The position numbers and the translations under genes are program-made. DNA of 61,420 nucleotides from Candidatus Gastranaerophilales bacterium (GTDB taxonomy: Bacteria > Cyanobacteriota > Vampirovibrionia > Gastranaerophilales > Gastranaerophilaceae). This document shows positions 6,782-11,841 of the stretch, piece by piece (the stretch's first letter is position 1; each line of letters starts with the position of its first letter). Location: positions 1 to 61,420 of the forward strand of contig CALUSG010000017.1 in NCBI GenBank assembly GCA_944323365.1, in the 5' to 3' direction. The notes beneath the pieces are model-generated. The model had not been told where the DNA came from, made no database searches, and saw only the letters and a program-made list of their open reading frames with translations.

Positions 6782-6858
6782 GGCGTCTGTCGTCAAGCGG
6801 TTAAGACCTCGGATTGTGGTTCCGATATGCATGGGTTCGAATCCCATCAGACGCCCCA
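6782..6858 (+). tRNA. trnH: tRNA-His (GTG)
   Basis: Full cloverleaf: acceptor GCGTCTG pairs with CAGACGC; anticodon stem TCGGA/TCCGA encloses loop TTGTGGT with anticodon GTG (His); T arm ATGGG/CCCAT with GTTCGAA. The extra 5' G at -1 pairs with C73, the identity element of tRNA-His, and both -1G and the 3' CCA are encoded. It is followed at once by a small terminator. Confidence 0.97.
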
Positions 6859-6865
6859 TTTTTAA

Positions 6866-6890
6866 GGCTCTCCATAAGGAGAGTTTTTTA
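6866..6890 (+). terminator. Rho-independent terminator after tRNA-His
   Basis: CTCTCC (6868-6873), ATAA loop, GGAGAG (6878-6883), six T. Confidence 0.8.
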
Positions 6891-7032
6891 ATGCGTATGA
6901 TGAGGGTGAGAACCCATCAAAGGCGAAGCCTTTAAAGGAGTTCGAACGTGAGCGAGCTGAGGGCGTAGGGATTTACGTATGTCAATCCCGCAGACCCGTT
7001 AGAGCAAGAAGACAATCCGATGCCCCATTTTT
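6891..7032 (+). other. Hairpin-rich, GC-richer non-coding element downstream of tRNA-His
   Basis: No plausible gene in the 385 bp between the tRNA and 7245. This part is clearly more GC-rich than its surroundings and holds three short perfect hairpins: GGGT-GAGA-ACCC (6904-6915, GNRA-type loop), AAAGGC-GAA-GCCTTT (6919-6933) and GGGATT/AATCCC (6968-6989). It also repeats pieces of the tRNA: GTTCGAA at 6940, CCCATCA at 6913, and GATGCCCCATTTTTAA at 7019-7034, which copies the tRNA 3' end and flank (GACGCCCCATTTTTAA, 6850-6865) with one mismatch. It may be a structured RNA or a relic of a tRNA-targeted insertion. The remainder, 7083-7230, is AT-rich with nothing recognisable. Confidence 0.5.
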
Positions 7033-7082
7033 AAAAGCTTTATTTTATGAGAGCCGTATAGACCTCCTAAAGCTTTTTATTT
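7033..7082 (+). terminator. Terminator-like hairpin with anti-Shine-Dalgarno sequence in the loop
   Basis: AAAAGCTTT (7033-7041) pairs with AAAGCTTTT (7069-7077), followed by a T-rich tail. The 27-nt loop contains GACCTCCT (7061-7068), complementary to the ribosome binding site core AGGAGGT. It would end any transcript running through the element to its left. Confidence 0.5.
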
Positions 7083-7244
7083 ATTTTAGCATATGTATAA
7101 AAGGCCTTAATACTTCTTAATAATTATTAGTTTTTTATTGAAAAGTATTATAGTTTGTTATACCTTGATAAAAAAGTTTAAAATAAATAAATTTATTATG
7201 AATTTTAAAATTATTAGAATGGTCTTGATTATTAGGAGTAAAAA

Positions 7245-8462
7245 ATGAAAATTGCATCAGTTCAAAATTATCAATGTAAACCTTATACTCAATTATGTAG
7301 TAATCAATACGGCATATCGCCAGCATTTAAAGGTTCAGGAGATTCATTTACTCAATCAGTAAAAGATGAGTCAATAGAAGATACGATGAAATCATTGATG
7401 GATGAAGTTCAAGATACGATTAAAAAAGCAAAAGAACCTGTGTTTTTTGAATATTATCCTGATAAACCAAATATTAAACAAAAAATTGGTATAAGATTAG
7501 GAGCATACAAAAATATATCTCAATTAACCGAAGAATTTTATGAAAAATATCTCAAAAATTCAATCAAAGATTTAAGAAATTTTGCATTTACACTAGAGTG
7601 GGAAAAGGAGGGTATTCCTGTAGAATATCCGAATTGTATATTAATAGAGGATCCATCAGATAAAATAGCGGATGATCTTATTAAAATGACAAAAGATATG
7701 TCGGATATAGATTATGCGGAGGTAAAGGGAGAACAAGGTTTGACGTTGTTGAAGAAAATGTCTGAAGTAATGGATGAATCGAAAATAAAATATGAAAAGA
7801 CAGGTCGCAGGACATTATTATATGCGGAAAATTTTGACAAATTATGCTTTGAAGGTATCCCATTTCATATAGGAGAATACATGAAGTCATTGATGACATC
7901 TTGTGCTGATTTATGCGGAACAACAATAATTTTTAAAACAAAAAGCAGTTATAACTTTTTAGGAGAGTTAACAGAACCTCATCGCTGCGGTATAATTAGC
8001 AGACCTCATGGAAAAATAAATGAAGAGATGGAAAAAATAGCAAAAGAGGAATTATCCAGGGAGTTAAAACCAATAACGGATATAATAGAGGCAGAACAAG
8101 AGTCGCTGGATAAATATCATAAATTGCCATATGAATTAGAAGTATCAAAAGCAGCGGAGGTCCCGAAAGAATTGGAGGCTCCGAAAGAAAAAATTGAGGT
8201 GCCGGAGAAAATAGAAACCCCCGAAAAAGTAATAAAAGAAGAAATAAAAGAAACGGCCGCAAGGTTGGAGGCTGCGGCAAAACGAGAGTTAGAGAATACT
8301 AAAAAAGAGATTAATGTATCAAAAAGTCGTGGTCCAATAAAAAAAGTAGTCATAATATTGGCATCTATAGGTGCTCTTGTAGCAGGGGTGAAAAATAAAG
8401 AAAAGATATTAAAAGTATTGAAAGGACAAAAAGATGAGAATACAGGCAGTACAAAGTTATAG
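7245..8462 (+). CDS. Degenerate AAA-like protein with coiled-coil and C-terminal membrane segment
   Basis: 405 residues, not a named family to me. N-terminus MKIASVQNY then SPAFKG (residues 25-30) is the motif shared across this island. Residues about 120-245 align by eye with the core of the next two proteins: GRRTLLYAENFDKL sits where the AAA+ Walker B strand lies, and MKSLMTSCADL then TTIIFKT and EPHR match the 9596-10576 protein nearly word for word. No Walker A or catalytic DE is present, so it is a probable pseudo-ATPase. Residues about 285-370 are a charged Glu/Lys/Pro stretch predicted to be helical, followed by a single hydrophobic segment (VVIILASIGALVAG) and a basic tail. AGGAG precedes the ATG. 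Overlaps the next gene by 29 bp, so the three genes are an operon. Confidence 0.7.
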   Translation: MKIASVQNYQCKPYTQLCSNQYGISPAFKGSGDSFTQSVKDESIEDTMKSLMDEVQDTIKKAKEPVFFEYYPDKPNIKQKIGIRLGAYKNISQLTEEFYEKYLKNSIKDLRNFAFTLEWEKEGIPVEYPNCILIEDPSDKIADDLIKMTKDMSDIDYAEVKGEQGLTLLKKMSEVMDESKIKYEKTGRRTLLYAENFDKLCFEGIPFHIGEYMKSLMTSCADLCGTTIIFKTKSSYNFLGELTEPHRCGIISRPHGKINEEMEKIAKEELSRELKPITDIIEAEQESLDKYHKLPYELEVSKAAEVPKELEAPKEKIEVPEKIETPEKVIKEEIKETAARLEAAAKRELENTKKEINVSKSRGPIKKVVIILASIGALVAGVKNKEKILKVLKGQKDENTGSTKL

Positions 8463-9582
8463 TAACAATATGTATACTCAAAAAAATGCATCGCCAGCAT
8501 TTGGTGCGGTTAAAGGTTTGGGGGATACCGGCGAAAACCTTTTGTTAATGCTTGATGAGTTTATTAAAAAAAACGGTGCTCAAAATAATATTTTTGGTAC
8601 AAAATTTAATGAATTAAAATCTTTGTATGATAGTATTGCTACTTCTAAAATAGAGAAAAATAAATTGGCTGTTATTGCAAAATTAAAAGAATTAAAAATG
8701 CAAATTTTAGACTTTTATCTTAATACAAAAACTGAAAGTAGTATATTAACACACAAAGTTAATTTAGCCAGTCAAGAAGACGAAATAAAACCTTCAATTA
8801 TCCAGGGGTTTGGTTTTGGAAAGATTGCCGGCTATGATGATATAAAAAATATATTAAACCGGGAGTTTATAAGCAAAATAAAACAAGAAAAGGAAGGTAA
8901 AAAAGTAAAAATACCGGGAGTATTTGCGTTTTTTGGCCCGAGAGGTAATGGTAAAACTACATCAGCTCTTGCTATTGCAGAGGAAACCGGATGTGCTATC
9001 GAAAGATTGGATGCTAGACCTTTTGATGAACCTAAAATTGTCATTGAACGTTTAAGAAAAGTTTTTCAGCAATGTAGTGATAAATTTGATCAAAAAGGTC
9101 GTCATATTATTTTTATGGATGAATTTACCAAATTTAGCAGAGAGGCTGAAGGTAGAAAAATGTTTGCAGATTTATTAAAAGATTGCAGTGAAAAATACCA
9201 CTCTACTTTTTTTGGTGCAACGAATAATCTTTCACAAGCAGGCGAGGAGTTTATGGCAATTAACCCTGTTCTCGTCGCTTTTGAACCACCTTCTAAATAT
9301 AATACTATTCAAATTTTAAAATATTACTTGCAGGATAGTGCTAATAACAATATTAATTATAGTGAGGCGGCTGATAAAATATTAGAATTGGCAAAACAAA
9401 GTGGCGGATTAATAAATAATTCTAGATTAAGGGAGATGTCAAAGCTCATAAAATCACAGACAAAAAAAGTCGATACGAAAGATATTATTGAAACTGCAAC
9501 TCAGTATATAAATAATAAAACTATTATTCCGCCCGATTATTTGAAAAATTTTAAATCGGATTATGAAAAATATATGAATTAG
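8434..9582 (+). CDS. AAA+ ATPase with motif-bearing N-terminus
   Basis: 382 residues. Motif N-terminus MRIQAVQSY then SPAFG (20-24). A helical linker (30-120) leads to a classical AAA module: FGFGKIAGYDDIKNIL, Walker A FGPRGNGKTTSA, Walker B HIIFMDEF, sensor 1 FFGATNN, and a C-terminal lid with GGLINNSRLREM. The second region of homology is odd: the usual RPGRFD arginine finger is replaced by NPVLVAFEPP, so trans-activation in a ring may use other residues or a partner. Substrate and role unknown. It lies between two paralogues that have lost the ATPase motifs, and starts inside the first (ATG at 8434, GGA upstream). No signal peptide, so presumably cytosolic unless the N-motif is a targeting signal. 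Confidence 0.85.
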   Translation: MRIQAVQSYSNNMYTQKNASPAFGAVKGLGDTGENLLLMLDEFIKKNGAQNNIFGTKFNELKSLYDSIATSKIEKNKLAVIAKLKELKMQILDFYLNTKTESSILTHKVNLASQEDEIKPSIIQGFGFGKIAGYDDIKNILNREFISKIKQEKEGKKVKIPGVFAFFGPRGNGKTTSALAIAEETGCAIERLDARPFDEPKIVIERLRKVFQQCSDKFDQKGRHIIFMDEFTKFSREAEGRKMFADLLKDCSEKYHSTFFGATNNLSQAGEEFMAINPVLVAFEPPSKYNTIQILKYYLQDSANNNINYSEAADKILELAKQSGGLINNSRLREMSKLIKSQTKKVDTKDIIETATQYINNKTIIPPDYLKNFKSDYEKYMN

Positions 9583-9595
9583 AAAGGGGAAAAAG

Positions 9596-10576
9596 ATGAG
9601 AATTTCTGCAATTACAAACTCAATGGCTTTTCGTAACAATACTGTTAAGCCATCATTTAGAGGAACGGATTATCCTTCAGGAGATTACAGTGATGAAGAA
9701 ATTGAAATGGCAAAGAAATTTATTAATCAAAGCGGGCCAAATTGGAGAAAACAATATAAAAGGGACAACAGGAGCTCATTTAAAGAATTGTATGATGCTA
9801 ATAATGGATTAAATCGTATTTTAGCTCCCACTATCAGGCCATTTTGTGATGATATGGAAGAAGCTAAAAGTTTAATAAGAGTATTCGTAGATGCCGGAAC
9901 AGTTTTTCTGTGGGAAGTGGTAAATTCACCTTTTGTCAGTGCCGAAACTCTTGTCAAAAAATTAATGCAAAATAATAAATTGAATAAAGAAACTCAACGA
10001 CTTGCATTATTAATCTGCGATTTAAAGGCAAAACAGGAAAAAGACCAAATAGATGCTCATATCAAAAATGTTAATTCAATTATAGAAAATACAGAAAAAT
10101 CTAACAGATTGATGCAATATCAAAAAGCCTTGAAGAATGGATTTATTATACCTGTTGAAGATGAAAAATTTGGGAAACCGGCTGAAATACCTAATGTTAT
10201 TATGATTGTGGGCCAAGATGATTATCTGAATAAGGATTTGATTAATTTTGTCAGAAAAAATTCTCCAACTTATTATGCATTTATTCAAGACGAAGATGAT
10301 GTTGATATGATGAAAAAATTGGATGACAAGTTAGATTTAGCAAAAAATGAGTATAATAAAAATGGTACTAGAATGTTGATTGAGGTTGATAATTTTGGTA
10401 AATTAATTCAAAAAGACAACCCGTTTGATTATCTCGAATGGATGAAAAGTCTTATGACATCTTGTGCTGATTATAATAAAGCTACAATTATTTTCAAAAC
10501 AGATGATTCATCAAATTATTCAGACGAAGCAATTGAGCCGCACAGGATTGGTTTAAAAGTAAATACTAATAAATAA
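9596..10576 (+). CDS. Degenerate AAA-like protein, third member of the AAA trio
   Basis: 326 residues. Motif N-terminus MRISAITNS then KPSFRG (18-23). After a helical region, residues about 200-322 resemble an AAA core without its catalytic motifs: PNVIMIVGQDD where Walker A should be (no GxxGxGK), GTRMLIEVDNFGKL in place of Walker B, and MKSLMTSCADY-ATIIFKT-EPHRIG shared with the 7245-8462 protein. It ends right after this strand, so the lid domain is missing. GAAAGGGG precedes the start, 13 bp after the active ATPase gene. It probably works with the active subunit as an adaptor or regulatory subunit; that is inference. Confidence 0.7.
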   Translation: MRISAITNSMAFRNNTVKPSFRGTDYPSGDYSDEEIEMAKKFINQSGPNWRKQYKRDNRSSFKELYDANNGLNRILAPTIRPFCDDMEEAKSLIRVFVDAGTVFLWEVVNSPFVSAETLVKKLMQNNKLNKETQRLALLICDLKAKQEKDQIDAHIKNVNSIIENTEKSNRLMQYQKALKNGFIIPVEDEKFGKPAEIPNVIMIVGQDDYLNKDLINFVRKNSPTYYAFIQDEDDVDMMKKLDDKLDLAKNEYNKNGTRMLIEVDNFGKLIQKDNPFDYLEWMKSLMTSCADYNKATIIFKTDDSSNYSDEAIEPHRIGLKVNTNK

Positions 10577-10580
10577 TTAA

Positions 10581-10626
10581 CTCAAACAGCCTGGCGAAAG
10601 GAGGTCCCGCCAGGCTTTAGTTTGAG
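10581..10626. terminator. Long hairpin with perfect Shine-Dalgarno sequence in the loop, end of the AAA operon
   Basis: CTCAAAC/GTTTGAG (7 bp) and AGCCTGGCG/CGCCAGGCT (9 bp) stack with a 3-nt bulge (TTA). The 11-nt loop is AAAGGAGGTCC. Read on the plus strand it displays AAAGGAGGT; read on the minus strand, ACCTCCTTT, the 16S 3'-end sequence. There is no T run, so it is a poor classical terminator. It sits between convergent genes. Confidence 0.55.
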
Positions 10627-10646
10627 TCGCTCAGGTTGTACCCGGG

Positions 10647-10964
10647 CTATAAATCTTCTGCTTCTAATTTTTTACTGTCGTGTATGCATTCGCCCTGTTC
10701 ATTGTATAACTGTAATTCTTGTATATATTTGCCGTCTACTTCTGCTTCATGATAATGTGTCTTTAATTTCCCGTTATCATAAAAAATTTTATGATCAAAC
10801 CAGCTTGGTTCCGCTGCATTCTCTCTTCTGATTCGCTCTACTAATACTCCGTCTTTTCTCTTTTCAAATATGTCTTCGCCATTTTCTATGTAGCGACGGC
10901 TTTCAATTTTTCCTCGTTTGTTGTTTGCATTAAAGCTTAAGCTGTTTACCGGTAAAATTCTCAT
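10647..10964 (-). CDS. Small repeat-type protein, MORN/YwqK-like
   Basis: 105 residues. Motif N-terminus MRILPVNSLSFNA. The rest has short strand-turn units such as NGEDIFEKRKDGVLVER and IFYDNGKLKTHYHE, reminiscent of MORN or YwqK-type repeats (F/YxNGxL). Clear paralogue of the neighbouring 78-residue protein (shared RKNGVLV/RKDGVLV and GKLK). The two lie 13 bp apart on the minus strand and are probably co-transcribed. Function unknown. Confidence 0.65.
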   Translation of the reverse strand: MRILPVNSLSFNANNKRGKIESRRYIENGEDIFEKRKDGVLVERIRRENAAEPSWFDHKIFYDNGKLKTHYHEAEVDGKYIQELQLYNEQGECIHDSKKLEAEDL

Positions 10965-10977
10965 ATCCTAATCCTTT

Positions 10978-11211
10978 CTATACATCAAAAGTTTTTATTT
11001 TTTCTTCATATATCACTTTTAACTTCCCATAATCTGTATATTCTTTGATTAGTGTATGTCGATAATTTTTGTCCTTATACTCTTTTCGTTCATACACTAA
11101 AACCCCATTTTTTCTTTCTTGCATTACTTCGTAATTATCCTCTTTGTAGCGTTTAGTTTGTATATTCTTTCCTGCGAAATTTGAATATACTGAGATAGGT
11201 GCAATCCTCAT
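10978..11211 (-). CDS. Small repeat-type protein, paralogue of the 10647-10964 protein
   Basis: 77 residues from the second of two adjacent ATGs (the first, at 11214, adds one Met). MRIAPISVYSNFAG carries the island motif (MRIxPI then F-A-G). The body (RYKEDNYEVMQERKNGVLV, YTDYGKLKVIYEEK) matches the longer paralogue downstream. Ribosome binding site GAAAGGGG is well placed for either ATG. A TAGCAAATTT element lies upstream at 11254-11263. Function unknown. Confidence 0.6.
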   Translation of the reverse strand: MRIAPISVYSNFAGKNIQTKRYKEDNYEVMQERKNGVLVYERKEYKDKNYRHTLIKEYTDYGKLKVIYEEKIKTFDV

Positions 11212-11253
11212 CATTTATACCCCTTTCTTATCTATTTAAACCCAAACAAAAAT

Positions 11254-11263
11254 AAATTTGCTA
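11254..11263 (-). promoter_or_regulatory. TAGCAAATTT element upstream of the small repeat-protein pair
   Basis: Minus-strand TAGCAAATTT followed by ATTTTTGTTTGGG and TTTAAATAGATAAG. The order resembles the 18352 promoter (TAGCAAATTT, TTGTTT, TATAAT) but with a longer spacer to any -10-like box. Confidence 0.35.
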
Positions 11264-11286
11264 CTTTCTTAATAAAAATTTATATT

Positions 11287-11841
11287 TTATTTCTTTTCAG
11301 CTGCTTGTTGTTTTTTTTGTAATTTTGTGAAATTTTTAAATGCTGAGTGCTTTTTGCTGGAAAACGGGTAATTGCTATATGTTTGGGGGTCTTCTTGTTT
11401 AAAAAATTTCTTTTCGATTTTAGCGGCTACCGGTGTGGCTATTAATGGTACTAAAACTCTTTCAGTTATTACACCTGAGCCGATTAAGGCAACTATTGTT
11501 GCAAAACTTTTTTTCGCCAGTGATATGTTTTTAAATTCTATACCTTTGAACAGTTTATCCCATAGTTTATTTTGGAATTTTGGATTAGCAATGGCAAATC
11601 CTACTACTATTTGGGCTATTGCTGTTACTGCTCCTGAGGCCAAGTCCATTGCAGCTACAAACGGACGCCTTTTTTCAGGAATTTTTTTATTTTCCATTGT
11701 TGTTTTATATCTTACCGAATATGCGAATACGTCTTTTAATACTGAACATACAACTATTGTTTTCGCCGCAAAGGTATCGTCTGATATTACACGCTTAAAA
11801 TGATTATTTATTATTTTTGATTCTGTTATTGGTTTTATCAT
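11287..11841 (-). CDS. Hypothetical membrane protein, second of a related pair
   Basis: 184 residues with two or three hydrophobic segments: about 25-42 (weak), 67-90 (LASGAVTAIAQIVVGFAIA) and 115-140 (SFATIVALIGSGVITERVLVPLIA), then a basic tail rich in Lys and Gln. It aligns loosely with its upstream neighbour (IPEKRRPF then VxxIAQxV, versus WAAIKQP then VTILAQLV), so the two look like distant paralogues. Start overlaps the neighbour's stop by 4 bp (ATGA), so they are translationally coupled. Family not recognised. Confidence 0.65.
   Translation of the reverse strand: MIKPITESKIINNHFKRVISDDTFAAKTIVVCSVLKDVFAYSVRYKTTMENKKIPEKRRPFVAAMDLASGAVTAIAQIVVGFAIANPKFQNKLWDKLFKGIEFKNISLAKKSFATIVALIGSGVITERVLVPLIATPVAAKIEKKFFKQEDPQTYSNYPFSSKKHSAFKNFTKLQKKQQAAEKK

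Follow-up and report, generated by a model that had tools for sequence, protein, structure and literature searches.

Three adjacent open reading frames, referred to as P1, P2 and P3, lie on the forward strand of the window (the whole stretch of 61,420 nt that was analysed, from a gut bacterium). P1 and P2 overlap by 29 nt, a purine-rich Shine-Dalgarno-like site is found at all three starts, and a 22-nt repeat that ends in AAAAAGATGAGAAT is common to the starts of P2 and P3. In the following, dead refers to AAA paralogues that have lost the catalytic motifs and active to those that retain them. The features of the locus are:

6935–11397, strand not assigned: accessory stretch with the trio, just 3' of tRNA-His and absent from sister genome G008
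7245–8462, + strand: P1, 405 aa, predicted tail-anchored dead AAA paralogue (core at ~82–279, E/K-rich tail 256–363, hydrophobic segment 364–382)
7983–7985, + strand: Arg247 of P1 (in EPHR), putative arginine-finger equivalent; the column holds R in 77 of 82 dead subunits
8334–8390, + strand: C-terminal hydrophobic, putative membrane segment of P1, residues 364–382 (Kyte-Doolittle 1.94; architecture conserved in relatives)
8434–9582, + strand: P2, 382 aa, predicted active AAA ATPase (disordered N-terminal motif, helical N-domain 33–109, core at ~126–286, four-helix lid 288–381)
8935–8958, + strand: Walker A of P2, GPRGNGKT, residues 168–175 (G173 and K174 invariant in 31 relatives)
9118–9123, + strand: Walker B of P2, D229 and E230 (invariant in 31 relatives)
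9223–9225, + strand: sensor 1 of P2, N264 (invariant in 31 relatives)
9259–9261, + strand: I276 of P2 at the arginine-finger position, arginine lost (paired with R317 of P3 by hhalign)
9596–10576, + strand: P3, 326 aa, predicted untethered dead AAA paralogue (long helical N-domain, core at ~155–326, no lid)
10445–10447, + strand: K284 of P3; K in 78 of 82 dead subunits, in 22 of 26 actives with a finger and in 5 of 53 actives without one
10544–10546, + strand: R317 of P3 (in EPHR), putative arginine-finger equivalent falling on p97 R362, as judged from fold, spacing and the column (R in 77 of 82 dead subunits)

The trio of the window is accessory: in sister genome G008 (L158) the same flanks lie ~160 bp apart without it. 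The 3' side of tRNA-His (6783–6858 and 6859–11400) looks like an integration hotspot, which is empty in G008. At the same site the sister genomes G012 (L156) and G002 (L159) have recombinase-bearing elements with serine-recombinase-like genes, identified by their sequence starts rather than by profile search. A near-repeat of the tRNA-His end is found at 7008–7034. A conserved neighbour gene was considered and rejected, as the flanking genes vary from locus to locus, and the genomic context therefore gives no function. Elsewhere in the window, two adjacent similar genes on the minus strand (839–1552 and 1602–2303; 237 and 233 aa) have a related N-terminal start, N.SFQ.

AAA cores of the three proteins

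The translation of P2 contains Walker A (GPRGNGKT), Walker B (IIFMDE) and sensor-1 (GATN) motifs, and the AF2 model adds a C-terminal helical lid (helices 288–381). This agrees with the preliminary description, which had also noted the loss of the arginine finger; I276 stands at that position. P2 matches Pfam AAA with an E-value of 1.6e-11, and a search of the PDB with its family profile brings up p97, CdvC/Vps4 and proteins of the Msp1 type. Archaeal Vps4 is the structure nearest to the model, and the match takes in the lid (Z 23.0, 241 residues; residues 126–380 aligned). P2 is thus a classical-clade AAA ATPase, with enzymatic activity predicted from sequence and model. The N-domain (33–109) is predicted to be helical with pLDDT 58–74, and the MIT domain that Vps4 has at its N-terminus was not found in P2 with Pfam up to an E-value of 1. 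The aromatic-hydrophobic-glycine motif of pore loop 1 is absent from P2 and present in the genome's own FtsH, which served as positive control. No HEXXH protease motif is found in the sequences of P1, P2 or P3. When the three proteins of the trio were searched with PADLOC, P2 gave a weak match to IetA (E 8e-5) and P1 and P3 gave none.

P1 and P3 are 42% identical over 152 aa (BLASTP, E 1e-32). Both were described earlier as lacking GxxGxGK and the DE of Walker B, and the sensor-1 N is missing as well. The earlier alignment of these flanking proteins with the P2 core also holds, although pairwise BLASTP finds no core similarity between P2 and P1 or P3: profiles built from 20 active and 23 dead relatives align across the core with hhalign (probability 99.4%, E 2.2e-21), and a dead-only profile picks out P2 in its own genome (E 6.9e-5). 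Because the dead profile matches nothing among the PDB sequences, the fold of P1 and P3 rests on AF2 and the profile comparison. The P3 core is modelled with pLDDT ~95, and residues 170–326 superpose on residues 207–371 of p97 D1 (Z 16.4, 2.6 Å, 152 residues). By this model P3 has the AAA large-domain fold; P1 has the AAA fold as judged from its identity to P3, and both are, on sequence and model evidence, true AAA paralogues. The preliminary description, which depended on the flanking proteins sharing this fold, is borne out on this point by hhalign, the P3 model and the p97 D1 match. P3 ends directly after the last core strand and therefore has no lid, as reported before; without a lid, P3 would be unable to propagate a ring in the usual manner.

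P1 has a single hydrophobic segment (364–382), 23 residues before the C-terminus. Of the two features previously assigned to this part of the protein, the membrane segment was recovered, whereas the coiled coil was not confirmed by a heptad test; residues 256–363 are rich in E/K.

All three proteins start with the motif M(K/R)I..I...SF(K/R)G/A (7245, 8434 and 9596), as had been claimed, and it is also seen at 10647–10964 and 10978–11214. A regular expression for the motif matches 5 of 63 ORFs in the window, P1–P3 included, against an internal background of 5%. It is found in 53 of 119 family members compared with 22 of 248 other genes of the same loci. In P2 it is predicted to be disordered, and it is possibly a sorting or docking signal.

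The trio and its membrane anchor in relatives

Complete loci of the type seen in the window (window-type loci) nearly always encode an active protein, a dead protein with a C-terminal TM segment and a dead protein without one (18 of 19). In the exception, L057, one dead partner is seen. Gene order varies between TM-dead, active, dead; active, TM-dead, dead; and dead, active, TM-dead. The trio is in this sense conserved among relatives, as the earlier proposal requires, and so is the TM-bearing dead member, in line with the earlier suggestion that a dead subunit gives membrane anchoring. Its hydrophobic segment lies 8–56 residues from the C-terminus, an architecture shared by only 6 of 228 other genes of the loci, 2 of which are themselves dead-family members. 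Accordingly, membrane anchoring of one dead subunit is predicted from sequence and conserved. Elsewhere in the family, a TM segment that precedes the dead core, or a separate small TM protein, is found in its place. In L076, two tandem 480-aa tail-anchored dead genes (8815–10257 and 10270–11712) do not differ in start sequence or scores.

Of 383 Gastranaerophilales genomes, 126 have a match to the dead profile, and in a phylum sample of 386 genomes every match falls inside this order. Named relatives are nearly all Candidatus Gastranaerophilales. A contig binned as Clostridia (L095) has an AAA protein that agrees in start and length with one on a Gastranaerophilales contig (L098), which is probably due to mis-binning. 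A phage or plasmid origin of the family was considered and rejected, since no relatives were found in viral contigs or PLSDB.

The arginine finger in dead and active subunits

Alignment of the cores of 166 family sequences shows that the proteins with an intact Walker A also keep the Walker B E and the sensor-1 N, apart from two truncated exceptions, and that Walker A, Walker B and sensor 1 are mostly gone from the dead proteins. The arginine of the finger is distributed the opposite way, being present in 77 of 82 dead subunits versus 25 of 77 active ones (Fisher test 5e-17, which ignores relatedness). Window-type actives have V, I, L or A at this position while keeping Walker A/B and sensor 1, and no R or K is conserved there. 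This is the pattern expected from the earlier proposal that dead subunits supply the missing contacts; the preliminary description had missed that the EPHR shared by the flanking proteins holds the finger arginine itself. The most conserved positions of the dead group are K284 (78/82) and the arginine of R317/R247 (77/82). Without any alignment, [HNQS]R is found near the end of the core in 84% of dead and 13% of active proteins, compared with 18% of random background segments. Covariation of K284 and R317 is strong in counts and not significant in independent tree pairs (4 pairs), so that the link between them is a pattern only.

In canonical AAA proteins the finger follows sensor 1 at a distance of 15 residues (TNRPDxLDPALLRPGR), and R317 of P3 comes 15 residues after the sensor-1 threonine. 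Residue 326 of P3 pairs with p97 371 in the structural alignment, which places R317 on R362 if the last ten residues align without a gap. Only the second of the two finger arginines of p97 is conserved, the first corresponding to E314 in P3. In p97, R359 and R362 belong to the trans-acting neighbour, and it is toward them that the leaving phosphate moves (PMC10914628).

A maximum-likelihood tree built from 140 cores with the trait columns removed requires 3 changes of the catalytic state, and the finger state changed at least 8 times. In the main dead group (67 rows) R is kept through deep divergence. Small actives in other lineages (e.g., L064–L066, L068, L079 and L085) retain their own finger, and the split is therefore not universal in the family. 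The two dead partners are 58% alike within a locus and 34% between loci in the a3-b4-finger part, compared with 27% and 21% in the N half. The within-locus likeness thus peaks in the finger stretch, as expected if both dead partners present a finger to the same active subunit. Between active and dead subunits the distance matrices are correlated (r 0.77–0.88), which is also expected from plain joint inheritance. The arginine of the dead subunits could have been retained for another reason, such as fold stability or contact with lipid or nucleic acid.

A putative split active site

We consider it likely that the trio forms an AAA machine that is obligately hetero-oligomeric, with its active site split between subunits and one partner tail-anchored, as sequences and models suggest, and P1, P2 and P3 probably work only as a team. 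Comparative evidence supports the hetero-oligomeric reading of the preliminary description, and from it we infer composite sites, physical assembly and ATPase dependence. P2 would bind ATP with its Walker A/B, sensor 1 and lid. Because its finger arginine is gone, one P2 would be unable to complete the site of another. P1 and P3 would lack the usual ATP binding and would present R247 and R317 into the P2 site, so that turnover would be expected only at interfaces between P2 and a dead subunit, with P2–P2 contacts unproductive. The C-terminal anchor of P1 would tether the assembly to the membrane and thereby license hydrolysis there, and P3 may act as an untethered activator with its own helical domain. 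That hydrolysis is possible only when the soluble finger-less ATPase is docked on a finger-only, tail-anchored pseudo-ATPase at the membrane is a stricter claim, to which we give an even chance.

P1 and P3 might instead be adaptors that dock on a P2 assembly; P2 would then use its own cryptic finger, and the arginine conserved in the dead subunits would be structural. Finger placement can vary among AAA+ proteins, and the role given here to the dead arginine is deduced from sequence and fold. Yet no R or K is conserved at the finger position of window-type actives, and the dead subunits kept the arginine while losing Walker A, Walker B and sensor 1, which makes adaptors unlikely. Slightly less probable still is a membrane-bound heteromeric motor like Ycf2-FtsHi, in which active and degenerate AAA subunits pull on proteins and thread them. 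P1 is predicted to be membrane-anchored, and Ycf2-FtsHi chains (8xqw) are among the top Foldseek matches of P2 and P3; in the chloroplast, FtsH12 is joined with proteolytically inactive FtsHi subunits and Ycf2 at the envelope (PMC8042743). Against this, 67 of 75 actives, P2 included, lack the aromatic-(x)-Gly of pore loop 1, P2 has no HEXXH and P3 has no lid. Within the composite-site model, a membrane-tethered ATP-driven switch or remodeller is favoured over threading because P2 lacks the pore-loop motif and P3 the lid.

The patchy distribution and fast divergence, the tRNA-His hotspot with its recombinase-bearing elements in sister genomes and the weak IetA match of P2 would also fit a cargo of an integration hotspot that acts against mobile elements or in conflict between bacteria. 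We regard this as improbable, since neither a toxin nor a nuclease could be recognised as a partner in the operons, P1 and P3 have no PADLOC match, and searches of viral contigs and plasmids gave no relatives. Finally, P1 and P3 lack all cis catalytic motifs, as decaying, functionless duplicates of an AAA gene would. Their frames are open, however, trio and anchor are conserved, and R and K are near-invariant across a long-branched clade; decay is very hard to reconcile with this conservation of non-catalytic features across relatives and was rejected.

P2 shares the core and lid fold, Walker A/B and sensor 1 with Vps4/CdvC, the meiotic AAA clade (spastin, katanin and fidgetin) and p97, but differs in lacking the finger arginine and the aromatic motif of pore loop 1 and in being accompanied by two dead paralogues, one tail-anchored. 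To our knowledge, the members of these groups are homo-oligomers with complete sites. Clamp loaders are hetero-oligomers with ATPase-incompetent AAA subunits in which catalysis depends on an arginine finger given in trans (PMC3331839). The bacterial DnaX complex, RFC and T4 gp44/62 resemble the proposed trio in these respects, whereas the trio belongs to a different AAA clade and has a membrane-anchored subunit, no collar domain and no DNA-replication context. The chloroplast Ycf2-FtsHi/FtsH12 complex is likewise membrane-associated and heteromeric with degenerate AAA subunits, but is of FtsH descent with FtsH protease-like domains. We know of no clean reciprocal Walker/finger split in it. Pex1/Pex6 have degenerate first ATPase domains. 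They form a heteromeric classical AAA complex (PMC4490564). Unlike the trio, they are tandem-AAA proteins and a threading unfoldase. In IetAS an AAA protein is paired with a subtilase; beside the trio no subtilase gene was recognised, and dead AAA partners are found instead.

Incompetent subunits and trans fingers in hetero-oligomeric AAA complexes are thus known from clamp loaders, and heteromeric membrane complexes with degenerate AAA proteins from FtsH12-FtsHi-Ycf2. In the literature searched we found neither a description of the family nor such a split with a tail-anchored pseudo-ATPase in a bacterial Vps4-like clade. If true, the model would represent a natural, deeply conserved reciprocal split of an AAA active site in about a third of the Gastranaerophilales sampled, a little-studied group of non-photosynthetic relatives of cyanobacteria. 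It would also point to membrane tethering as a way to gate an ATPase and to a finger state that changed repeatedly inside a single family, and its three small genes would allow direct tests of trans-activation and of the function of pseudo-ATPases.

Larger arrangements are seen in some relatives. A second AAA gene of 700–820 aa lies in opposite orientation beside the cluster in L064, L065, L066, L068, L074, L077, L108, L112 and L123, with Walker motifs and without the finger residue. The operons of L073, L075, L082 and L114 combine two dead paralogues with three AAA genes whose Walker motifs are intact, one of them finger-bearing, and are a larger version of the trio design.
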